Of a stretch of 22,971 bases of DNA, positions 11,316 through 22,971 are shown in pieces (positions within the stretch are counted from its first letter, which is position 1; the number at the start of each line of letters is the position of its first letter). The notes below the pieces were generated by a model. The model was not told where the DNA came from. It saw nothing but the letters and a program-made list of their open reading frames with translations, and did no database searches. The DNA is from a virus, in the IMG/VR virus record IMGVR_UViG_3300049737_000306, positions 1-22,971 of that record. One strand, written 5' to 3'. The position numbers and the translations under genes were made by a program.

Positions 11316-12653
11316 TTAAAGACTGTTGTAGTTAACAGTCAGATAGCCGTGCCTGTCAGTGCCAACAGCAGGGTGGTCGCCCAGCTCTTGAGCAATAACA
11401 CCCATGCGGACCTGATGGTCAACACCGATTTCTCTGGCCTTGTCATTCCAATCCCATGTGTACAGGCTCAGCCCGTTGTCCTCACCTACCTTCTGGACGT
11501 TCTCCTTGAGGCGGATATCAGAGGAGCTAGGATTAGACCAGCCTCCCCCGGTCAGCCCGGTGTACAGCCAATCAAGACCGCCTGCCGCACTGCTAAGCAC
11601 ACCGCCAAGGCCGCTTAGACCAGAGCCATCTGATCCCTGCGAGCCACCAAGGTTGTTTAGGATGGCGCTCATTAGCTGTGCGCGAGACTCGTTTGCTACC
11701 TTCTGAGCATTGACGTTGTTGCCCATGCCACCCAATACCATCTGGCTGAGGAAGCCTTTGCCTGTGAGCTGACCCTGCTGAGCCATCTCTGCACCAGTGT
11801 TGCCCTGCTGGAGGATCTGCAACTGCATATCCATAGGCAGATAGCTGAGCTTCTCCATGTCCATGCCAATGCCGTACTGGTTCTGGCCCAGCTCTGCGTA
11901 CTGCTGGCCTAGCTGACCCAAGCCCTGCGCTCTCTGGTTACCGAGCTGACCAAACTGGCTAGCCATCTCACCAAACATGCCGCGCTCTTCTCTAGCAAGG
12001 TCCATTGCACTGACGCCTGCCTCTCTGCTGGCCTGCGCTCTGGCCCTAGCCATTGCCGCATCCTCAGCAGTGCCGCCGTACTGTGTGCCTCTAACACCGC
12101 CGCGACCCATAGCATACTCTTGAGCCTGCTGATTTGCCTGCTGTCTGTTTAGCTCTGGATTCTGGAGAGCCATGAGTCGGTCATACATCTCCTGCTCACG
12201 ACCAGAGGGGTCAGCCATAGCTCGATTCATGGCCTGCTGTACATTGGTCCCGGTGTTGTAGTTGCCGTAGGCGCTAATAGCGTTACGGAATGTGTTATCA
12301 GCGTTGGTCAGAGTATTGGCACCATTCGTAAGCAGGCCATCACCACCGTTCTGATACAGGCTGTCAGGACCAACGCCAAACGCCATATTGAACTTGCCGT
12401 CTGCATTAGTAGAGCCTGTGGTAGAACCTAGCCCGGTGCTGATCCCGTAGCCCTTGAACTGGGAGCCGCTATCAAGGCCGGTGCCTTGCTGGAATGCCCA
12501 GTCATTAAGGTAGTTGCCCAGATTCTCCATCCGGTCAGCCGCCGCTAGGCTCTGGTCTATAGAGTAGGCAGAACCTGCCAACCCAAGGGCGTTGTTAATG
12601 GCGCTTCCGCCACCGTCATCAAGCCAATTTTGAATGCCGCCAAAAATGCTCAT
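11316..12653 (-). CDS. gp14-position virion protein with C-terminal S74-type chaperone-like domain
   Basis: The 445-residue product begins with a Gly/Asn-rich stretch (MSIFGGIQNWLDDGGG). It continues with Gln/Ala/Met-rich helices (about 120-330), typical of small internal virion proteins. The last 68 residues start SSSDIRLKENVQKVG and include MGVIAQELGDHPAVGTD and VNYNSL. This is the SSDIRLKEN...GVIAQEL pattern of the S74 intramolecular chaperone, usually found on tail fibres and spikes. AGGAG eight bases upstream supports the ATG. The position matches T7 gp14. The domain ends soon after the AQEL motif, without the long C-terminal helix of fibre chaperones, so it may be reduced. Confidence 0.65.
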   Translation of the reverse strand: MSIFGGIQNWLDDGGGSAINNALGLAGSAYSIDQSLAAADRMENLGNYLNDWAFQQGTGLDSGSQFKGYGISTGLGSTTGSTNADGKFNMAFGVGPDSLYQNGGDGLLTNGANTLTNADNTFRNAISAYGNYNTGTNVQQAMNRAMADPSGREQEMYDRLMALQNPELNRQQANQQAQEYAMGRGGVRGTQYGGTAEDAAMARARAQASREAGVSAMDLAREERGMFGEMASQFGQLGNQRAQGLGQLGQQYAELGQNQYGIGMDMEKLSYLPMDMQLQILQQGNTGAEMAQQGQLTGKGFLSQMVLGGMGNNVNAQKVANESRAQLMSAILNNLGGSQGSDGSGLSGLGGVLSSAAGGLDWLYTGLTGGGWSNPSSSDIRLKENVQKVGEDNGLSLYTWDWNDKAREIGVDHQVRMGVIAQELGDHPAVGTDRHGYLTVNYNSL

Positions 12654-12667
12654 GCTAAATGCTCCTA

Positions 12668-14443
12668 TTAAGCCGTTAATCTGCCGACAGCAGAATTGAT
12701 GTCAAATTCTTGTAGGGCGTAGCGCCCACCTTGCACCTTGATCTCCAGCCCAACCCTGAATAATTTGCCGGAGCCAAGTGTGTTGATTTTGTAGCCGTTG
12801 TAGAAAGAATCACCTTGGTAGTACCAGCCAGCTAGATCAGCATCGCCGTCCTCAGTGAATTGATGAATGTTGTAGCGGGACTCCCCGGTGACTTCGATGT
12901 TGAACTCACGGTTCGCCATCATCTTGTCTGAGAAACCCCAGAGCGCATTGGCCGCACCGACAACCTTTTCTCCCATGCAGACAAAGAAGATCGACTTGGG
13001 CATTACCGTCTGCATTGACTGACCACCCAGAGCCATAGCCTGACTCTCGTAACGGAATATGAACGGATTGATCTCACCGTCCTCATCATGCTCCGTATAG
13101 CCATCGTACTTGAGCAGGCCGCGACCCGGCTTACCGGCCAAGTAAACAACATCACCGCCTTCCATCTTGCATTCGGTGGTGTCGTTCCAGAAGCAGTTAG
13201 TCCAGCGGGTGACCTTGAAGCCCCCTGTCTTGGATGGCATGTTCAGGTGGAATACATAGGCCAGTCTTAGGCCACAGCAGAGCATAACTGCTATGGATTT
13301 AGACGGTATGTACTCCATCTTTATGCCTGACCAGCGGGGATCTAGCGCAATCTCTTGGGTGATTACCTCTTGGATCTCACGCCGGACGTTAAGGCTGGCT
13401 TCCTGTATGGGGTTGGACTTCTCTTGCACAACCCGGCCAATGGTCCTAACGCCAGACTCGTCCACAAACATAACGTCCGTGCCGATGTTGCATATTGCAT
13501 CCCGGCGAACTAAACCGACATTTGATATTGCGTCCTGTAGCTTAATGCCGTTCTCGCCAGCAGGATCACCGGAGTCAAAGCCAGTGTAAATAAGAATACT
13601 GTTGCGACCAAAGACCAGCAGAAGGCCATTGTGAGCGTGGATGTTAACAATGCTGTCAGCCTCGACAGGCCAGTACTCTCGTACATCAATGATTCCCCCG
13701 GTGTTGAATGTCTCGCTCTCTGTGTCTGAAGCGTCATACCACTGAGTCTCATCTAGCAGGCTAGAGTAGTGGATCTCATGGTAGTTGTTGTTAACACCAG
13801 TAACCCAGAGCCGACCATAGGCAGAGATAGCTATATCACCATCAATGGCGGTGACCTTATTGCCGTCTATATCCTTCACATCAGCATCTACAGGGACAAA
13901 CTCTTGGTCATTGTCTAGGCGACAGAAGGGCTTGCCCTTGGCGAATAGGAATGCGTTGTCCTTGAAGTCCACTATGTCTGCGGTCTGCAAGTCTTCTACA
14001 TACCCAACCGGGAGGGTTATATCCCTCAGCTCACCATCAATCTCCATGGCACAGCCGTATGTAGCCTGATCCGTGATCTCTAGGGATCTGCCCCTGTCTA
14101 CAGGTACGCTCTTTCTGTCACCTGTGGGGATCATGTTGAAGAACTGAACCTCTGTGGTTTGGCCTTCCCTGTACACAAAGATTGGCACCTCTCTGTTAGT
14201 GCCGTGTATAGGGTCTACAGAAAGGGCGTGAGTCTTTAACCGGATCAGCTCAGGGTTCAGCTTATCGCTCATGGTCAGGTAATCAGAGAAGGCCATCCTA
14301 GTAGTCAGCCTGCCTATCTGATCAACCACACAGTTATCAGCAACCAGAGCAAACTCAGGGTCACTATTGATTGGCGACTGCTCAGTATTCAGCCCCTGAT
14401 AGCCGGGACTTCTGATCGCCACTTGCTGTACAGGTTGCGCCAT
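12668..14443 (-). CDS. tail tube/nozzle protein, T7 gp12 (tubular B)-like
   Basis: The start is ATG 14443, which shares a base with the upstream stop (TAATG). A TTG at 14458 is in frame but less likely. The 591-residue product opens with AIRSPGYQGLNTEQSPINSDPEFALVADNCVVDQIGRLTTR, a pattern typical of phage tail nozzle proteins. Beta-rich repeats follow that could form propeller blades, for example INIHAHNGLLLVFGRNSILIYTG. T7 gp12 is longer (about 794). It lies directly after a tubular A-like gene, as in T7. Confidence 0.65.
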   Translation of the reverse strand: MAQPVQQVAIRSPGYQGLNTEQSPINSDPEFALVADNCVVDQIGRLTTRMAFSDYLTMSDKLNPELIRLKTHALSVDPIHGTNREVPIFVYREGQTTEVQFFNMIPTGDRKSVPVDRGRSLEITDQATYGCAMEIDGELRDITLPVGYVEDLQTADIVDFKDNAFLFAKGKPFCRLDNDQEFVPVDADVKDIDGNKVTAIDGDIAISAYGRLWVTGVNNNYHEIHYSSLLDETQWYDASDTESETFNTGGIIDVREYWPVEADSIVNIHAHNGLLLVFGRNSILIYTGFDSGDPAGENGIKLQDAISNVGLVRRDAICNIGTDVMFVDESGVRTIGRVVQEKSNPIQEASLNVRREIQEVITQEIALDPRWSGIKMEYIPSKSIAVMLCCGLRLAYVFHLNMPSKTGGFKVTRWTNCFWNDTTECKMEGGDVVYLAGKPGRGLLKYDGYTEHDEDGEINPFIFRYESQAMALGGQSMQTVMPKSIFFVCMGEKVVGAANALWGFSDKMMANREFNIEVTGESRYNIHQFTEDGDADLAGWYYQGDSFYNGYKINTLGSGKLFRVGLEIKVQGGRYALQEFDINSAVGRLTA

Positions 14444-15078
14444 TACACTACCGCCCAAGTAATTTCAGTGGGTGAGAGCCTTGCGTCTAAGGCTATTGCG
14501 TCAGATATGTACTGCTGAGCCATGTTAAACAGCTCCTGTGCCGTCTGGCCCCCTACCTCTCCACGCTCTCTAGCCGCTAAAGCCAGTGCGTAGTATATAA
14601 CTGGCTGGTCTGGGAGTCTTAGCTCATCTGTGTCTTGAGCCAGATCAGGAAGATTCCTATGACCCAGCACTGAAATGCCATATACCCCATCAGGTATGGG
14701 GTCAAAGCGGAGCATAATATTTCCAGCGTCATCGGTTCCTTCCCAAGCCCAGCGCCACGGTGATCCCTGCCTGCTCCCTATAACAGCCCTGAGATCCCAT
14801 TGCTCCATGTGTCTGATAGCATCATCCCTGCTGACCTCAGTAATACGCGCCCCATTCCTTGTCTCATCAAGGATATAACCAGCTCTGCCCTCTACCGTGC
14901 CAAACTGCCATACGTTCCGTGTGGCATTCCAGCTATGAGCGGACTCTACATGGCGCTTAGCATCGTTTACGAAGTGCTTTACTACGTTGACCACAGGGTC
15001 ATCCATCGTCCTCACAGTGACCGTCTGAGGCTCTCTGAGGCGGTCTAGCACCCCGTTTACTAGCTGTAAGTAATTCAT
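14443..15078 (-). CDS. tail tube protein A, T7 gp11-like
   Basis: The 211-residue product has the pattern of podovirus adaptor/tail tube A proteins. It begins MNYLQLVNGVLDRLREPQTV, then VNDAKRHVESAHSWNATRNVWQF, then ITEVSRDDAIRHMEQWD, a beta-rich middle and helices with YYALALAARERGEVGG near the C-terminus. Such proteins form the ring between portal and nozzle. Length is close to T7 gp11 (about 196). The ATG overlaps the upstream stop (ATGA), and the stop overlaps the nozzle gene start (TAATG), so the three genes are coupled. No search was run. Confidence 0.7.
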   Translation of the reverse strand: MNYLQLVNGVLDRLREPQTVTVRTMDDPVVNVVKHFVNDAKRHVESAHSWNATRNVWQFGTVEGRAGYILDETRNGARITEVSRDDAIRHMEQWDLRAVIGSRQGSPWRWAWEGTDDAGNIMLRFDPIPDGVYGISVLGHRNLPDLAQDTDELRLPDQPVIYYALALAARERGEVGGQTAQELFNMAQQYISDAIALDARLSPTEITWAVV

Positions 15079-18000
15079 CGCTTATTCATCTCCGTCCTAA
15101 TGCCGTCTAGGAATCCCCTGACAGGTCGATTTGTGGGTTTCTTGCCCTTATATCCGGGGCCGGGATCTACAGGAAAGAGGCCACCAAAGGTAGGGTTGTA
15201 ACCGCCGCCACCACTGCCAAGAAGGAAGCCACCAGCACTATTGCCACCACCGTTGCCATCTCCAATGCCATCTCCATCCCCATCTCCATCTCCATCACCG
15301 GTACCGTCACCATCTCCAGTACCGTCACCACCGCCAGTGTCTCCAGCAACACAGTTGCCAGTAGCGTCAATGGTTCCAGCCTGTCCGTTCTGAAGGGTGC
15401 AAGACCCGCCTACGCCCACAGCTATACAAGTGCCTGTCTCATCAACGACCCCTGACTCGCCATTCCTAAGCACACAGGCATCTCCGGGCTGGACGCCGCC
15501 ATTATCTACGTCATCGCCACCGTCATCATCACCGTCACTGTCATCGTCAGTATCGCCGTCATCGCTACTGCCGTCATCGTCATCGCCACCTCCGGTATCA
15601 TCACTGCCACCGCAGAACCTATCCCAAGCCTGAGTCTCAAATGTGTACTCACCATTAGGACCGAGAGGGCGCTCCATGTCGCAATAGCCTTCATCTCCGG
15701 GCTGAAGCGTGGTGTCAGTGCCATCATCGCCACCACCATCATCACCGCCACCGTCATCACCGCCGCCGCAGTATCTATCCCACGCTTGAGTTTCAAAGGT
15801 GTACTCACCGTTTGGCCCTGTCGGACGTTCCATGTCGCAGTAGCCTTCATCCCCCGGCTGTAGGGTGGTATCACCGCCGTTATCGTCGCCACCGTTACTG
15901 TCGCCACCACCTACGTCCTCAAACGCTACGCACACCCCATCGGGGTACTCAAACCCAGAGGGGCAGGAGAATGAAGGCATCTGTGTAGTGCGGTCAGGAG
16001 CAGTACATACGCCGTCCTTTATAGTCCCCGTAGAACCATCAGACAGAGTGCATTCATCGCCCTCGCTAGGCGTAGTACCAGTGTCCGTGGTGTCATCGCT
16101 ATCATCGCTATCATCATCGCTGTCATCATCATCATCGCTGTCCGAATCATCGTCATCATCGTCGCCTGCGGCTGAGGCATCAATAGATGGCGTGATGTCA
16201 CAGACAACAGCGCCAGAGGTGGGGCTTTCAACGTATACCCCATCGTATGAGCCTATAGCACAAGGATCACCAACGGCGGTGTCATTGAGATTGTCCTCAA
16301 TCTCATTGCGGCTTTCTAGGATGTCTTGATATATCTGTGAAGGTGAGTCACCCAGATCCAGCAGGCGCTCAGCAAATGCCCTCTCCTCATCTGTCAGGTC
16401 AGGGATCTCATCCATCCAAGCCTCAAACTCTTTGGCTGTGCCATCATAGTAATCCAGCTCATCCTCATACCGCTTGATCTCTTGGCCTGTGTCCTTGTTC
16501 CGCCAGACAAAGTAACGGCGGGGATTGGTGGGGTCAGAGCGATCCATGAACGTCCCGCCGTTCTCCCAGACACCGTTCTCATCAAGTAGTTTTACATCCC
16601 CGTTATAGATGACCAGCTCAGGGGCGCTCTCATACATGGTGTCGATAACGTCTTCACTGTAGATCCCGCTGTAGTCATCCCGCGCCTGAATGGTCTTCAA
16701 GTCTTCAAGGGTGTAACCCTTAGAGAGCCACTCATCCAGCATTGCCTGACTGTACTCAGAACCAGTTAGACCGCTATTCAGAGCGTTTTCCTTAGCTTCG
16801 TTCCATGCTTCCATAGCGGCGTCAGACTGACTAATAGCTGTAGAAGACAGGCCACCACTACCACCGCCCGGATTGTCGTAGGCGTTAAAGACGATCCAGT
16901 TAGCGCCAGCATTTGGATTAGGCTTGAGATCCTCACGCAAGTCACCATCACGAATGACAGTGCCGCTCTGTTCGTGAATGATGTTTCCGTACTGGTTCAG
17001 TATGTAGCCGGGAGGAAGGAAGTCCGCGTTGGTAATAACGTACTGACCGGGGTTTTCCTGATCTCCTAACGCCGTGTACCCGCCCTGATCTTGGTTAACG
17101 GCTTCGTTAATTAAATTGATAATCAGGTTGGGGTTGGCGTTAATGGCATCTTCGTATGCCTGTGCCGCTGGACCTGACCACGTTCCGCTACTTACGGCTG
17201 AGCTAATGCCTGCCGCCGTAGCCAGCCCGTTACTGGTAAGTACGGCCTCAAACACTCTCTCTAGCGCCGTGACAGTAGTTGAGTTAAGCAGGCCAAGATA
17301 GGTGGCCCCCTGACTGCCCAATCCAAGGGCCGCAGACCCGCTACCCAATGCCCTAATACCCTGACCAACAATGTCCCTAAATGCGTTCATGCCACTGTTA
17401 AGAGCGCCAGCAAGAGAGTTAGTGGCGGCGTATTGGCTGACAACACCACCAATCCCTGCTGTCAGGGCAGAGATCACTGCTGATTTAAGTACTGATTTAG
17501 CAAACGCGCTAAAGTCAAAGCCGTCATCAACCTTGGTGACTTTCTGATAGGCCGATCCGGTCCACTGGAACCTGTCCCCATCATTGTTGTAGATGGTGGG
17601 CTGTATGCCGTATAGCTGTAGCGTCTTCTCATGGCGCTTCAACCATTGCGTGTATGCGTATTTGCGAGCCTGCCCTTGGTCTGCGGCTATCTGCCTGCGT
17701 AACTCCTCCCTCTCTCCGGGCGCCCACGCAATGTCCTCATACTGCTGGGCAAGCCACTTCCTGCTCCCCGGCTGATAGGTCATCTCTGCATTCCACCAGT
17801 CAGCATCTTCCAGCATCGGGCGGGTTTCTACTAAGTAGCTCTTCCAAGCCTCAATGGTGCCAAACTGATCTTGTATCTGCCCTGAATCCCGCCACATCTG
17901 CTGTAGCTCAGAGGCCGTGACCTCTTCCGGGGGCTTCTGATTGCTGGTTATGCCAGACGCAAATGGATTCCTAGCCCCGCCCTTAGTGTTAAACGGCAGA

Positions 18001-18143
18001 ACCAGAAACGTATCAGGCTCCTCTGTATTGCTTGGCTCGTAGTCAGGCAGGCCACCGGGGAAATTAAAGTACGAGCTAGCGTCCGCTGTTAGCGGATTAG
18101 CAAAGTCCTCGGCTAAGAGGGGATTACCAAAGGGATCATTCAT
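15075..18143 (-). CDS. large virion-associated protein with seven cysteine-pair modules, unknown
   Basis: The 1022-residue product begins with a polar region (1-205), then a hydrophobic, Gly/Ala-rich stretch at about 211-325 that could insert in membranes. A mixed region follows, with a helical segment near 430-620. From about residue 626 to 931 the chain holds seven cysteine pairs: short modules such as CTLSDGSTGTIKDGVC and CTLQNGQAGTIDATGNC, and two copies of an LQPGDEGYC...WDR(Y/F)CG module. Linkers rich in Asp, Gly and Ser separate them. A GDGDG run lies near 933-967. It sits between the DUF4214-like gene and the tail tube genes. I do not recognise a family; a surface or calcium-binding role is inferred. 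Confidence 0.65.
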   Translation of the reverse strand: MNDPFGNPLLAEDFANPLTADASSYFNFPGGLPDYEPSNTEEPDTFLVLPFNTKGGARNPFASGITSNQKPPEEVTASELQQMWRDSGQIQDQFGTIEAWKSYLVETRPMLEDADWWNAEMTYQPGSRKWLAQQYEDIAWAPGEREELRRQIAADQGQARKYAYTQWLKRHEKTLQLYGIQPTIYNNDGDRFQWTGSAYQKVTKVDDGFDFSAFAKSVLKSAVISALTAGIGGVVSQYAATNSLAGALNSGMNAFRDIVGQGIRALGSGSAALGLGSQGATYLGLLNSTTVTALERVFEAVLTSNGLATAAGISSAVSSGTWSGPAAQAYEDAINANPNLIINLINEAVNQDQGGYTALGDQENPGQYVITNADFLPPGYILNQYGNIIHEQSGTVIRDGDLREDLKPNPNAGANWIVFNAYDNPGGGSGGLSSTAISQSDAAMEAWNEAKENALNSGLTGSEYSQAMLDEWLSKGYTLEDLKTIQARDDYSGIYSEDVIDTMYESAPELVIYNGDVKLLDENGVWENGGTFMDRSDPTNPRRYFVWRNKDTGQEIKRYEDELDYYDGTAKEFEAWMDEIPDLTDEERAFAERLLDLGDSPSQIYQDILESRNEIEDNLNDTAVGDPCAIGSYDGVYVESPTSGAVVCDITPSIDASAAGDDDDDDSDSDDDDDSDDDSDDSDDTTDTGTTPSEGDECTLSDGSTGTIKDGVCTAPDRTTQMPSFSCPSGFEYPDGVCVAFEDVGGGDSNGGDDNGGDTTLQPGDEGYCDMERPTGPNGEYTFETQAWDRYCGGGDDGGGDDGGGDDGTDTTLQPGDEGYCDMERPLGPNGEYTFETQAWDRFCGGSDDTGGGDDDDGSSDDGDTDDDSDGDDDGGDDVDNGGVQPGDACVLRNGESGVVDETGTCIAVGVGGSCTLQNGQAGTIDATGNCVAGDTGGGDGTGDGDGTGDGDGDGDGDGIGDGNGGGNSAGGFLLGSGGGGYNPTFGGLFPVDPGPGYKGKKPTNRPVRGFLDGIRTEMNKR
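15604..15871 (-). repeat. two copies of a 36-residue cysteine module
   Basis: Two near-identical coding copies lie within 15604-15871. Each begins TTLQPGDEGYC, passes through ME RP(T/L)GPNGEYTFETQ and ends WDR(Y/F)CGG. They are separated by an Asp/Gly-rich spacer. The protein copies differ at few positions, which points to a recent duplication. Confidence 0.8.
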
Positions 18144-19348
18144 CTGCCACCTAGCCCCATGCCTCTAACAAGAGCCAGATAGTCAGGGTTAAACAGGCCA
18201 TTGGCTGTTAGGCCCGGTGCGCCCTGCTGTGCCACCTGTATCTCTTGTTTAGTGTTTTGTGTCCTGCCATTTTCCGCCGCCTGTACAGCAAGCTGATCTA
18301 GCACGTTCTGCCTAGCGTTGCTGTAGTAGGGGCTTTGTATATCCCCGCCATCCCTGCCCAATATGTCCTGTGCAGTAAACATCCCGTTAAAGAACATGGA
18401 CTCATCGGGTGTGTACAGTGTCTCAGGCTCAGGCTCAGGGTCAGGGTTGCTGTTACCGTTAGGGTCAGTCCACCCAGAAGGTGGCCCTGTAGGTGAGTCG
18501 GCTGTGTTGCTTACATATCCAGCATTGGCTGGCGGACCCTCTCCCATATAGAAGGGGAACCACTGCCAGCCGCCTCCTGCATTGGCCCAATACCAGCCGA
18601 TAGGGGAGTCATTACCAGTGTCAGTGCCATCAGTATCAGTATCAGTATCAGTATCAGTGTCACCACTTCCGTCAGTATTGCCTAGTGCCTCTGGAGAGTT
18701 CTCAATGTTCCACCTGAGATCGGCAAGGCTCATGGTGGTGGCACGGGCCAGCCAGTAGTTAAGGCCGTCCGCTCTAGGATCTCTGCCTAGAATCTCGTTG
18801 TAGAGCGCGTAGACATCAGCCTCAGTAAAGTTAGCGCCACCAGCGGGGTCTTCGTTACCCGTAGTGTTTTGGGTCTGCCCCAGCGCCTCTGGACTGTTCT
18901 CAATGTTGTAGCGCAACTCGTCCATGGTCATGGTGCCAGAGCGTTCCATCCAGTAACTCAGTCCCTCAGCTCCGGGCTGTCTGCCAAGGATCTCTTGGTA
19001 CAGGTTTCTGACATCCTGCTCAGCAAAGTAGTTGTTATCTACTGTGTTAGTGCCAGCGGCATTAGCTTCAGGGGCAACAGAGCCGCCGCCAAAGTAGCTA
19101 CTACCAAGACCCCTGTTAACCCATGTGGTGTACTCTGTAAGGGAGTTATCCTTCTGCAATGGGTGGAAGAACGTCCAGCCATACATGCCAAGGTTGGTCC
19201 AGTACTCAGGATTGGCCTCCCGGCCCTCAGCCTTTATATCTCTCAGGATCTGATCTACCTCAAGAGAATAGGGGGTAGGTACAAACTCACCTGACTCCAC
19301 CGCTTCACGGTAGGGTCTAAATGACATTGGCCCTTCTGTGGTTGACAT
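18140..19348 (-). CDS. virion-associated protein with two DUF4214-like repeats
   Basis: The 402-residue product contains two copies of a unit of about 50 residues, near 108-160 and 172-225: (D)VRNLYQEILGRQPGAEGLSYW and VYALYNEILGRDPRADGLNYW, each continuing to NIENSPEALG. The LYxxILGRxPxxxGLxYW pattern is that of DUF4214, found in many secreted and phage proteins. A short Asp/Thr tract and a Trp/Pro-rich region follow, then a helical Gln-rich tail. Its ATG has AGGAG seven bases upstream, and its stop overlaps the next gene as ATGA. A structural or host-contact role is likely, but its exact job is unknown. Confidence 0.65.
   Translation of the reverse strand: MSTTEGPMSFRPYREAVESGEFVPTPYSLEVDQILRDIKAEGREANPEYWTNLGMYGWTFFHPLQKDNSLTEYTTWVNRGLGSSYFGGGSVAPEANAAGTNTVDNNYFAEQDVRNLYQEILGRQPGAEGLSYWMERSGTMTMDELRYNIENSPEALGQTQNTTGNEDPAGGANFTEADVYALYNEILGRDPRADGLNYWLARATTMSLADLRWNIENSPEALGNTDGSGDTDTDTDTDTDGTDTGNDSPIGWYWANAGGGWQWFPFYMGEGPPANAGYVSNTADSPTGPPSGWTDPNGNSNPDPEPEPETLYTPDESMFFNGMFTAQDILGRDGGDIQSPYYSNARQNVLDQLAVQAAENGRTQNTKQEIQVAQQGAPGLTANGLFNPDYLALVRGMGLGGR
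18631..18660 (-). repeat. hexamer repeat coding (Asp-Thr) units
   Basis: CAGTAT occurs four times in a row from 18631, followed by CAGTGT. On the coding strand this gives a run of alternating Thr and Asp in the DUF4214-like protein. Six-base units keep the frame, so slippage would change only linker length. Confidence 0.85.
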
Positions 19349-19358
19349 TGCTTAACTC

Positions 19359-20243
19359 CTATACACAGTCTGGATGGATGGGAGAGAACATTGGCACAGT
19401 GCAGTCAATCGTGACTGTATCCCCTGTACCCGTTGTGCTGGCCGCAATCACCTCACCGTCTAAAGTCAGCGAGTACGGCGATCCAAGCCCCTGCAAATAT
19501 TCAATGATCCCACCCAGCGTTGTCTCTGATCCGTCATAAGTGACGGTAGAATCGTACATTGGGTTGTAGTGATACGCACCGTTAACTAAGAATCCGTCTT
19601 CTGACGCGTCATAGCTGGTATCTTGACTGTACGTTGTAGTGGTCGAAGTTGTCGTAGTCGTGTCTTCAGACGTTGAGTTGTCAACATAAGCCTGATCTTG
19701 AAGATCATAATACGAACCGCCCACCGACATTCCTGAATTTTCAACGCCAGCAACACCGAGGCCCGCCACTGCTTCCACAATGCGGGCATTAGTTGCTTGA
19801 TCCCCCAGCATGATTTCTCTATTAGCGTCTTGGGCATTCTTGGTCACCGATGCGTTGATAGCGGCTACACCTAATCCGCTGACTAATGTTCCCACTGTGG
19901 GGGCTAATGCTTTGGTCCACTCCAGCGCATCATTAGACTGCTGTTGCAGGCCCATAATGGGAGCGTTCCCAGAAGCCGCTGTATCGCCCTTCACGCCAAT
20001 AACCGCTAATGCCACTGCCACACTAGGGGCGTGTTCGGGGTTCGCCTTAGCTACCTCTGCTAAAGCCTCAACAAGTGCTACCTGCTGGGCAGAAGCGGCC
20101 TGCCTTTCCTGAAGCTGAGCTTCTCTCTGAACAGCAACCATGCGGATCTGGTCCGAAGCATGCTGAGCTTGTCGCTCGTTCCCTTTTGAGGTGGCACAGC
20201 CAGCTAAAATCAAGGCTGAGGCAGTCATAGCTATTAATCTCAT
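19359..20243 (-). CDS. phage lipoprotein in the tail region, unknown function
   Basis: The start is ATG 20243, with GGAG seven bases upstream. A GTG at 20249 lies only one base from that site. The 294-residue product begins MRLIAMTASALILAGCATSK, a lipoprotein signal with lipobox LAGC. The residue after the lipid-bearing Cys is Ala, which in Gram-negative cells favours the outer membrane. Next is a Gln/Ala-rich helical region, then a mixed domain, a Thr/Ser-rich linker and a beta-rich C-terminal part with two cysteines near the end. It is coupled to the tail-assembly-like gene upstream. A role in superinfection exclusion or lysis is possible. Confidence 0.7.
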   Translation of the reverse strand: MRLIAMTASALILAGCATSKGNERQAQHASDQIRMVAVQREAQLQERQAASAQQVALVEALAEVAKANPEHAPSVAVALAVIGVKGDTAASGNAPIMGLQQQSNDALEWTKALAPTVGTLVSGLGVAAINASVTKNAQDANREIMLGDQATNARIVEAVAGLGVAGVENSGMSVGGSYYDLQDQAYVDNSTSEDTTTTTSTTTTYSQDTSYDASEDGFLVNGAYHYNPMYDSTVTYDGSETTLGGIIEYLQGLGSPYSLTLDGEVIAASTTGTGDTVTIDCTVPMFSPIHPDCV

Positions 20244-20245
20244 AC

Positions 20246-20851
20246 TCACTCTCCGGTGTAATCAGGTGGCACAGGCCAGTCTATTTCTTTAGGAAAGTCG
20301 GGCTGAGCAGGAAGGTCGCGGAGTGCTTGTCGATATACAAGCCACGCGTCCCTATCCACAGTCTCAACATCAGCGCAGAAGATATGATCGCTTGTTAATA
20401 GGAGCCAGTTTCTTTTGTCTCTCTCACCCGCCGCGTAGTTAGACAGGCGCTGTGCTTGCTCCTCTTCCGTCAGGTCGTAAACAACCCACGGGATGGTTTC
20501 TTGTGCAGGATCTGTAATATCGCCGGGGATCAAGTCTTGAGTCCACGGATCAATCACAGGCTCTTCCTCATACTGAGGATTAGGCTCAAAAGGGAGGTAC
20601 AGCTCTGGCTCAACACTCAATGTCCCCTCTTCAGGGATAGTAAGTTGGGCAGGATGATCCGGTATTCTTTCCCAAGACCCAGCAATACGGCTGGCTATTG
20701 CCGATATCTGCTCAATCAGCTTCTCTTTATGAAAGTCTGGGAACTCAAACTGCTTTACCCACTTCTCATCCGGTCGGTCAGGGTGAGTGAACTCCACAGC
20801 AATCCACTCCTGCTGGGGGAGATACTCCAATACTTTGTATTTAACTTTCAT
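20246..20851 (-). CDS. tail fibre assembly-like protein
   Basis: The 201-residue product has the C-terminal pattern of phage tail fibre assembly proteins: ERDKRNWLLLTSDHIFCADVETV, then a WLVYRQALRDLPAQPDFP block and a WPVPPDY end. The N-terminal half is beta-rich with a Trp-containing strand (EEWIAVEFTH-like), and an acidic middle region follows. AGGA six bases upstream supports the ATG. It lies directly after the polyglycine adhesin-like gene and near the fibre gene, the usual place for a fibre chaperone. The match is by motif, not by search. Confidence 0.65.
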   Translation of the reverse strand: MKVKYKVLEYLPQQEWIAVEFTHPDRPDEKWVKQFEFPDFHKEKLIEQISAIASRIAGSWERIPDHPAQLTIPEEGTLSVEPELYLPFEPNPQYEEEPVIDPWTQDLIPGDITDPAQETIPWVVYDLTEEEQAQRLSNYAAGERDKRNWLLLTSDHIFCADVETVDRDAWLVYRQALRDLPAQPDFPKEIDWPVPPDYTGE

Positions 20852-20859
20852 CCTGATTC

Positions 20860-21909
20860 CTAGATTGCGTGAGAGAATTTAATGATGCCGTGACCGCCAG
20901 CTTTGCCGCCCTCTGGACCGCTACCGCCACTAACAGAGCCGCCACCGCCACCACCACCGCCCTGCTTAGAGCCAGCAGTAGCATTGCCTTGTCCGCCAAC
21001 AGTCTTGCCGCCCTGACCACCACCGCCGTTACCGCCAGCGCCACCTGACCCAGATCCGACAGAAGCCCCGCCGCCACCAGCACCATAGACGCCAAAGGGG
21101 GAGTAGTTCTTGCCGCCACCACCAGCACCACCGAATCGCTGGGAGTCAGAGCCACCTGTTCTACCGCCACCGCCAGCACTGTTCATACCGCCACCGCCTG
21201 CGGCACCTCCTGAGTTTCCGTTACCGCCATTGTTGCCTTCCCAGCCAGTTCCGCCCGTGCCGATATTGGACGTTCCATATCGCCCGCCACCACCGCCGCC
21301 GTTACCACCCGCTTTTCCAACGTAGTTAGCGCCCTGACCGTGAGATCCACCGCCACCACCGCCGTTTACTGACACTGCGGCAATGCCGCTAGCGTTAATT
21401 GTGGTGTTGCCGCCATTGTTGCCCTGCGTCTTAGCCCCGCCTCCATTACCAGCCTTGCCGGGTTGACCGCAGTACGACTGTCCAGCCGCCGCATTACATC
21501 CCTTTGTGAAGACTCCGCCGCCACCTCCACCACCGCCAGAGATGGAGCCGTTGCTTTGATACTGGTGCGCTGGACCACCACCACCGCCTCCGCCACCAGC
21601 ACCCACAAACATCGTTTGAATAACGTTGCTATAAGACCCAACAGCGGGCGAAGTGATATTCATACAACCCTGCGCGTTGGTGTTGGTAAGCGTCACTATC
21701 TTGTTGCCGCCGCTGGTTGTGAATGCCCCACCCGTTACAGTTGAGACAATGGGGGAAGCGGCAGACTTACCAAGGAAGTCAGTTAGCTTCAGGTTCCCAC
21801 TCGTAGGAACGCCCGGAGCCGCACCAAGGTAGGCCCGCAGATTGTTGCCCTTATTAAACTCAGCCTTAACTTGAGACTGCCTAATAGGGACGCTTGATGG
21901 CAGTGCCAT
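20860..21909 (-). CDS. glycine-rich adhesin-like protein (receptor-binding candidate)
   Basis: The 349-residue product begins MALPSSVPIRQSQVKAEFNK, a polar segment with a short beta domain and MFVGAGGGG near residue 100. The remaining two-thirds are long runs of Gly broken by Asn, Ser and a few aromatic or charged residues. It ends with a short hydrophobic strand (GHGIIKFSHAI). Gly-rich chains with this layout are known in T-even gp38-type adhesins, where polyglycine helices display variable loops that bind host surface proteins. The gene overlaps the fibre stop (TAATG). The link to receptor binding is inferred. Confidence 0.6.
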   Translation of the reverse strand: MALPSSVPIRQSQVKAEFNKGNNLRAYLGAAPGVPTSGNLKLTDFLGKSAASPIVSTVTGGAFTTSGGNKIVTLTNTNAQGCMNITSPAVGSYSNVIQTMFVGAGGGGGGGGPAHQYQSNGSISGGGGGGGGVFTKGCNAAAGQSYCGQPGKAGNGGGAKTQGNNGGNTTINASGIAAVSVNGGGGGGSHGQGANYVGKAGGNGGGGGGRYGTSNIGTGGTGWEGNNGGNGNSGGAAGGGGMNSAGGGGRTGGSDSQRFGGAGGGGKNYSPFGVYGAGGGGASVGSGSGGAGGNGGGGQGGKTVGGQGNATAGSKQGGGGGGGGSVSGGSGPEGGKAGGHGIIKFSHAI

Positions 21910-22971
21910 TACTTGTTTTCCTCAATCATGCGCCGCAAGTCCTTGATCTCCTCAATGAGATAAGCAATCAAGCCCATGTAAGAAACAGACAGCCCATCCT
22001 CACCCTCATGGACAAGGTGGGGGAGTACCTTCTGGACCTCCTGCGCGATAACACCACTAGCCTGCTCGCCAGTGTCTGCCCACTCAAACTCAACACCGCG
22101 CAAACTGTCGATATAGCCCAGTTGAGCAGTGACAATATTCTTCTTTTTGTTTGCGTCAGACGAAGCAATGAAGTCGGTAGCAGTAAGGTTTCCGCTGTAG
22201 GAGCCAGACATAAGGAAGGTGTTACCGGATTTTGATAGGCCATTACCTGCCGTGTTGGGTGTAGCGGCGGTTCCTGCTGGACCTTGCGGACCCTGCGGAC
22301 CCGTTGGACCCGTACCACCCGCTGGTCCCTGCGGTCCTGTTGCTCCAGTACCACCGTTCGTACCGTTGGCACCATCATTGCCTTTTGGACCCTGCGGGCC
22401 TGTTCCGCCGTTGGCTCCGGTATCACCCTTCGGACCCTGCGGTCCCGCCACGGTTGAGTCCGCGCCAGTATTTCCTTTCTCACCCTGTGGGCCTTGTGCG
22501 CCTTCTGGCCCTGTTGGACCCGGAACCTGAGAGTCTTCTCCCTTCTCACCCTGCGGCCCCTGTGGTCCTACCCCGCCATCTGCACCACGCAAATCGGGGG
22601 TCTCAAAGCCAAGGCCATCGTCAGATAGGAATTTGATCTTGCCATCTGCGGCATCGTAGTAGCCGTCAGTCCAGCCTTTGCCATCAGTGCCTGCAATTCC
22701 CTGACCACCCCTTATGTCAGTGGTAGAGAATCCAAGGCCATCATCTGAGGTGAAAGTGACAAAGCCAGTGTTGGCATCATAGGTTCCACCTGTCCAGCCG
22801 GGGCCAGCAGGACCAGTAATGCTCTCACCGTCTATGCCATCTGTGCCGTCAGTGCCGTTAGTGCCTCTCAGGTCACCAGTGACAAAGCCAAGGCCGTCAT
22901 CTGAGGTGAATGTAACGACTCCATTGGACGCATTGTATGCACCAGAGGTCCATCCCTTGCCGTCTACGCCG
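21909..22971 (-). CDS. tail fibre with collagen-like region and S74-type chaperone domain (5' cut by window)
   Basis: The frame stays open to the right edge, giving at least 353 residues. Visible order, N to C: three modules of about 36 residues ending SDDGLGF.T.D(L/I)RG (22584-22970), then about 110 residues of Gly-x-y repeats rich in GPQGP and GPKG (about 22274-22590), then a short beta segment. The final chaperone domain begins SSDANKKKNI (about 22163 down to 21912), with GVIAQEVQKVLPHLV inside it. S74 domains guide trimer folding and cleave themselves off before the first Ser. A TTG at 22592 is inside the frame and not a start. The collagen-like part suggests a triple-helical shaft. Confidence 0.85.
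   Translation of the reverse strand, partial: GVDGKGWTSGAYNASNGVVTFTSDDGLGFVTGDLRGTNGTDGTDGIDGESITGPAGPGWTGGTYDANTGFVTFTSDDGLGFSTTDIRGGQGIAGTDGKGWTDGYYDAADGKIKFLSDDGLGFETPDLRGADGGVGPQGPQGEKGEDSQVPGPTGPEGAQGPQGEKGNTGADSTVAGPQGPKGDTGANGGTGPQGPKGNDGANGTNGGTGATGPQGPAGGTGPTGPQGPQGPAGTAATPNTAGNGLSKSGNTFLMSGSYSGNLTATDFIASSDANKKKNIVTAQLGYIDSLRGVEFEWADTGEQASGVIAQEVQKVLPHLVHEGEDGLSVSYMGLIAYLIEEIKDLRRMIEENK
22584..22970 (-). repeat. three tandem fibre modules
   Basis: Three copies of a module (W-T-x-G-x-Y-(D/N)-A then SDDGLGF-x-T-x-D-(L/I)-RG) are encoded at 22863-22970, 22707-22814 and 22584-22691. Short Gly-rich spacers of different lengths separate them. The first copy reaches the window edge, so more may lie beyond. 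Confidence 0.85.

Follow-up and report, generated by a model that had tools for sequence, protein, structure and literature searches.

The window analysed here is a stretch of 22,971 nucleotides from a virus (IMG/VR record IMGVR_UViG_3300049737_000306), and our subject is the gene at positions 15075-18143 of its minus strand, which encodes a protein of 1022 amino acids (aa). As judged from sequence comparison, the protein is a member of an undescribed family, known to none of the libraries searched, in which a conserved N-terminal domain is followed by a variable, acidic arm. In this member the arm carries seven small modules with two cysteines each. The comparison of relatives gives good support to the view that the cysteines within modules occur as pairs, and from this we infer that the modules are closed by disulfides. 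The reading we prefer, to which we give about an even chance, is that the protein provides a tail-associated, exposed, acidic and interchangeable arm on a podovirus particle, with modules that would close by disulfides after release.

All 14 cysteines of the protein lie between residues 628 and 931 and form seven successive pairs, and residues 1-627 contain none. If 14 residues were placed at random in a chain of 1022, all of them would fall within the final 395 with a probability of about 1e-6. An earlier sequence-only reading had described seven cysteine-pair modules, two of them near-identical, in Asp/Gly linkers with a GDGDG stretch. This layout is borne out, with 24% Asp and 22% Gly over residues 650-960, but the modules themselves occupy window positions 15351-16262, and the span that had been given for them is that of the whole gene. 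The features of the gene are listed below, with the predicted local distance difference test (pLDDT) of the AlphaFold2 (AF2) model where it bears on them.

15075-18143, minus strand: whole gene, a single intact open reading frame (ORF) with an ATG start; conserved N-terminal domain, helical region and variable acidic arm
17529-17936, minus strand: core of the conserved N-terminal domain, residues ~70-205, including NNDGDxFxWTGSxYxK; AF2 pLDDT 90-96; invariant alignment columns; the part common to at least 179 viral contigs
17232-17513, minus strand: Gly/Ala-rich helical region, residues 211-304; AF2 helices of low confidence; top hydrophobic 19-mer 1.61 at residue 218
16200-16262, minus strand: cysteine pair 1 (C628/C648), of the GDPC...GAVVC type; this first module is also kept in L020, L021 and L022
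16077-16190, minus strand: poly-Asp/Ser linker, residues 652-689, with tandem repeats in its sequence; AF2 pLDDT <50
16005-16052, minus strand: cysteine pair 2 (C698/C713), class A module GDxCxLxDGxxGxIxxGxC; AF2 pLDDT ~87, strands at 697-699, 705-709 and 712-714
15930-15965, minus strand: cysteine pair 3 (C727/C738), CPSGFEYPDGVC, of the same type as the modules of the relative L077, in which alone Pfam cEGF is matched
15768-15839, minus strand: cysteine pair 4 (C769/C792), duplicated module, copy 1
15612-15683, minus strand: cysteine pair 5 (C821/C844), duplicated module, copy 2, of the 156-bp tandem duplication
15489-15611, minus strand: Asp/Gly/Ser linker by sequence, residues 845-885; AF2 pLDDT mostly <50
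15426-15476, minus strand: cysteine pair 6 (C890/C906), class A, first of a conserved doublet
15351-15401, minus strand: cysteine pair 7 (C915/C931), class A, second of the conserved doublet
15240-15335, minus strand: GDGDG repeat by sequence, residues ~937-968, with hexamer tandem repeats
15078-15161, minus strand: C-terminal tail, residues 995-1022 (VDPGPGY...), which aligns across close relatives

The near-identical modules are residues 759-795 and 811-847, with 34 of 37 aa the same, and their DNA forms the tandem duplication at 15598-15893. At the nucleotide level 22 of 111 positions differ, and the codon changes are 17 synonymous against 3 non-synonymous. Purifying selection acts on the amino-acid sequence of the duplicated module, and the two copies are therefore real coding units in use. 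The protein is identical in two further IMG/VR contigs and in a third fragment. An antisense ORF at 15865-16329 on the plus strand was set aside as arising from the low complexity of the sequence.

The evidence for pairing comes from the number and placement of cysteines across the family. Intact homologues that bear cysteines always have an even number of them (2, 6, 8, 10, 12, 14, 16, 28, 34 or 38), whereas the counts are odd in 71 of the 135 control ORFs of at least 200 aa at the same loci. The homologues represent some 17-18 distinct cysteine layouts, and the chance that all would be even is about 2^-17. Two records stand outside this count, namely L024 (nine cysteines), which has a false upstream start, the Met at residue 41 beginning the homologous N-terminus, and L114 (four cysteines), which looks frameshifted. 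The N-terminal 400 aa of the family hold 10 cysteines in 30,347 aa, most or all of them from a false start, a frameshifted record or 5'-truncated records. The two cysteines of a pair are mostly 10-17 residues apart, and the step from L076 to L077 is a single exact insertion of 22 aa with two cysteines. The rule of even cysteine counts is easy to compute and could bring further proteins of this kind to light.

Structure prediction agrees with pairing in one type of module. The class A modules (GxxCxLxxGxxGxxxxxGxCV) are modelled by AF2 as a meander of three short strands, with one cysteine on strand 1 and the other on strand 3 (pLDDT 73-88), and the class A doublet in isolation gives the same three-stranded fold. 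Together with the even counts and the gain of a two-cysteine module, this supports the earlier proposal of disulfide-closed mini-domains, as something predicted from sequence and model. Profiles of class A match only the family gene across all loci fetched. Searching the modules against known profiles had been suggested as a check, and class A has no significant match in Pfam, in the PDB sequence search or in Foldseek-PDB. A degenerate DNA pattern for the module proved too strict and returned no matches.

The family itself was delimited by its N-terminal domain and its gene order. The whole protein has no significant match in Pfam (no family at E<=1), PHROGs, PDB sequences or Foldseek (PDB, BFVD), and no PHROG is common to more than 3 of 36 homologues. 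A tblastn search of 50,697 phage records gave no match for the protein, for three divergent relatives or for the module doublet, and no member of the family turned up when 84,980 genomes of bacteria and archaea were scanned for proviruses. In contrast to these searches, an alignment-based scan of IMG/VR found contigs encoding the N-terminal domain, 60 at first and at least 179 later. The window protein carries both marks of the family, which are the domain with NDGDxFxWxGSxYxK in invariant or near-invariant columns, and a gene placed directly before that of an SU10-type adaptor. The adaptor gene directly follows in nearly all relatives with enough flank, and in a few (L064, L065, L067, L068, L070, L071, L073-L076) one further gene stands between the two. 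In the window the gene shares 4-bp ATGA overlaps with its neighbours on both sides, which are the following partner genes.

18140-19348, minus strand: DUF4214 protein (Pfam 1e-13), a separate adjacent gene
14443-15078, minus strand: SU10-type tail adaptor, directly downstream (Pfam SU10_adaptor 6.4e-13)

In one group of relatives (L025-L030, L039, L040, L043-L045, L053) the homologue carries the DUF4214 domain as an N-terminal fusion, and in another (L068-L075) the domain is encoded downstream of the homologue. Because of the fusion, the evidence points to the DUF4214 protein and the 1022-aa protein being physical partners.

Behind the N-terminal domain, the proteins of the family differ completely from one another. 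Their arms consist of cysteine modules set in Asp/Gly, Thr/Asn, Ser or Gly/Thr linkers, of Thr- or Gly-rich spacers, or of coiled-coil-like stretches. The arm of L027 is made of RTX repeats (Pfam PF00353, 2.3e-19), and L025 and L028 have the same GGNGNDTL motif at the same position. The arm of L077 consists of serial CPDGF...GxGC modules (Pfam cEGF, PF12662, 2.5e-10). Module number had been expected to be worth comparing among relatives, and it does vary, from 0 to 19 pairs. Absence of the modules from relatives had been taken as a sign against the idea; 49 of 76 distinct homologues are indeed free of cysteines, though 600-1700 residues long, but the way in which modules come and go among the homologues shows that they are swapped, not that they lack a function. 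On a tree of the N-terminal domain the cysteine trait changes at least 7 times, 4 of them forced by well-supported branches, and some long branches make the details unsure. This suggests that the C-terminal arm is a cassette exchanged repeatedly among relatives, a fast-evolving part that works outside the cell.

One property of the arms is retained throughout. All 56 distinct arms are net acidic, with a median of -0.13 per residue against -0.05 in 207 other ORFs of the same loci, the arms being non-independent samples. In close relatives the Asp/Gly linkers are replaced by TNTN, Ser or GTGT runs and the modules are kept. What appears to be conserved in the linkers, by this comparison, is net negative charge and not the Asp/Gly sequence. 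The arms of L036, L037 and L089, with 28, 34 and 38 cysteines, are far denser in cysteine than that of the window protein, and L036 and L037 contain a vicinal CC and repeated DCTLVECDSPRPEG...AWDECC units. Of 56 distinct family tails, 29 carry a short motif, GM[LF]T / G[ML][LF][TNSGA], within their final 60 residues, where shuffled sequences would give 2.4. The motif is also present close to the N-terminus in distant members and at residues 322 and 384 of the DUF4214 protein of the window, and it may be a peptide on which a shared partner docks.

From these observations we draw the following picture. The N-terminal domain, probably with the adjacent DUF4214 protein, would anchor the 1022-aa protein to the virion beside the SU10-type adaptor and nozzle, and the C-terminal ~400 residues would form a long, acidic and mostly disordered arm exposed on the particle, with seven small modules and one intramodule disulfide in each. 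The N-terminus shows no hydrophobic segment resembling a signal, and the protein would therefore leave with the virion or at lysis, its cysteines being reduced during synthesis in the cytoplasm and oxidised once outside. The oxidised modules would then be compact beads, resistant to protease and shear and joined by flexible linkers, and would serve to touch the surface of the host, a role suggested by gene position and arm variability. In evolution the arm would serve as an exchangeable cassette of disulfide modules, RTX repeats, plain low-complexity spacers or coiled coils. Tail association is supported by the gene order with tail genes, the translational overlaps and the DUF4214 fusion, and exposure by RTX and cEGF in the arms of relatives, both being extracellular types of domain. 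The sequence-only reading had also called the protein virion-associated, and the gene order, from tail fibre through DUF4214 protein and 1022-aa protein to adaptor and nozzle, makes this plausible; the location itself, like exposure and host contact, stays at the level of a proposal. A further step, which we find rather doubtful, is that the arms of the family stay unfolded as long as they are in the cytoplasm, being unable to fold there, and acquire their fold only outside the cell, through oxidation in the case of cysteine modules or calcium in the case of RTX, depending on lineage. If true, this would represent a maturation step of the tail after release, with arm types swapped by recombination.

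Several points weigh against the exposed arm closed by intramodule disulfides. The virion location is argued from synteny, in a family with no homologue in any cultured phage. The arm contains no known receptor-binding domain, and the GMLT/GMFT motif common in the family is missing from the tail of the 1022-aa protein. Module types other than class A, and all linkers, are modelled with low confidence, mostly below pLDDT 50-60, and no fold is predicted for them. The vicinal CC and CxxxxC spacing of L036 and L037 do not fit a simple bead with one pair, and pairing may differ there. Disulfides are invisible in sequence, and pairing between modules or between chains is possible.

The main rival, which we hold unlikely, makes the protein an internal virion protein of the ejection type, whose Gly/Ala-rich helices insert into or cross the host envelope and whose modules oxidise in the periplasm of the next host, helping to build or brace a conduit for DNA translocation. 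The gene lies in the same cluster as gp14-, gp15- and gp16-like internal proteins, a lipoprotein gene stands two genes upstream, and the hydrophobic helices at residues 211-304 are possibly membrane-active. However, the gene is on the fibre side of the adaptor, apart from the internal-protein genes, and the products of those gp14-, gp15- and gp16-like genes are entirely free of cysteine. Hypervariability and recombination of an arm are also more usual in exposed parts. Position, arm variability and cysteine-free internal proteins thus count mildly against it. It is less probable still that the protein is not in the virion, being either an assembly factor or released at lysis to act externally, on nearby cells or on debris for instance. 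In its favour, the virion location is argued from synteny, and holin-like genes stand directly upstream in many distant relatives, but the near-invariant place before the adaptor, with its ATGA overlap, and the fusion or adjacency of DUF4214 argue for co-expression with tail parts. The holin-like gene itself encodes 125-132 aa (phrog_2524, function not assigned; L033:4552-4932 and equivalents).

An arm that folds on binding metal, with zinc or copper at the cysteine pairs or calcium at the GDGDG and poly-Asp linkers, seems very improbable to us. The Asp/Gly-rich linkers, the RTX calcium repeats in the same place in some relatives and a weak structural resemblance between the doublet and CopK, a copper protein (Foldseek E 0.2), would be in keeping with it. 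Two cysteines per module, without conserved His or Cys, are however too few for a zinc site, and a metal site at the pairs was judged unlikely on that count. The sequence-only reading had thought calcium binding possible; for the 1022-aa protein this finds no support, as there is no Pfam match, no RTX motif (GGxGxD) and no conservation of linker sequence, which in close relatives gives way to runs of Thr/Asn, Ser or Gly/Thr, the modules being kept. Calcium-binding linkers were rejected for this protein, in which charge and modules are what is conserved.

Compared with known systems, the exposed arm with serial disulfide modules would not stand alone. Agrobacterium phage Milano has a disulfide network of sheath and baseplate in its virion (PMC10811340), and phage 7-7-1 has one in its capsid (PMC12796354), so cysteine pairing is less odd for a phage protein made in the reducing cytoplasm than had been supposed. 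The predicted likeness is one of function, in that here as there virion proteins of cytoplasm-assembled phages would have cysteines that end as disulfides. The difference is that those bonds lock subunits or a capsid lattice, whereas here the pairs would lie inside short serial modules of a flexible arm, in variable copy number. The window protein appears to be a phage structural protein with disulfide modules, a kind already known, of a family new to the libraries. If the arm is on the virion, phage virion disulfides would extend from lattice locking to serial beads on an arm.

The RTX proteins differ in that L027 has true repeats in the arm position and alone matches PF00353, whereas the 1022-aa protein has none of the GGxGxDxUx nonapeptides and its modules depend on cysteine. 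An EGF domain has six cysteines in three disulfides. The L077 modules score above the Pfam cut-off for cEGF, and CPSGFEYPDGVC of pair 3 is of that type, but the window protein has no Pfam cEGF match and two cysteines per module instead of six. The adaptor and nozzle genes of the window are of known kinds (SU10_adaptor; phrog_5107; cf. gp45/gp44 of HMO-2011), and neither HMO-2011 nor Roseobacter phage CRP-13 has an annotated counterpart of the 1022-aa protein in that place. What is described here is a widespread family of the structural cluster of uncultured phages, with a fixed N-terminal domain and an exchangeable, always acidic arm drawn partly from domains that are normally extracellular. 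With the arm on the virion, the natural variety of the family, from 0 to 19 disulfide modules and including RTX, coiled-coil and low-complexity arms, would allow tests of the task of such arms.

The source is an uncultured, probably marine, short-tailed virus (podovirus) of bacteria. The window is an IMG/VR fragment, and the 37.8-kb contig IMGVR_UViG_3300048504_000257 has the same genes and covers it in permuted order, the window spanning the ends of that contig. This suggests a genome of ~37 kb, circularly permuted or circular. The contig encodes a terminase, a portal, a capsid protein and a scaffold-like protein, and the portal is related to those of HMO-2011-type and Roseobacter podoviruses. 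Along the minus strand the genes encode, in this order, collagen/S74 fibre, Gly-rich protein, tail-assembly chaperone, lipoprotein-like protein, DUF4214 protein and 1022-aa protein, followed by SU10-type adaptor, nozzle-like protein and gp14-, gp15- and gp16-like internal proteins, the last three being named from position and general character, not from a profile match. Collagen repeats and the Peptidase_S74 domain, traits of tail fibres with an S74 chaperone, are found by Pfam search in the neighbour at 21909-22970 and not in the 1022-aa protein. In the protein at the gp14 position (11316-12653, minus strand) Pfam places a Peptidase_S74 domain (endosialidase chaperone; 2.7e-07) close to the C-terminus, which is unusual for the position of an internal protein. 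The lipoprotein-like protein (19359-20249, minus strand) has a lipobox LAGC and two further cysteines near its C-terminus, and its homologues in L020, L021, L022, L047 and L055 mostly have 3 cysteines, that of the lipobox and a pair.

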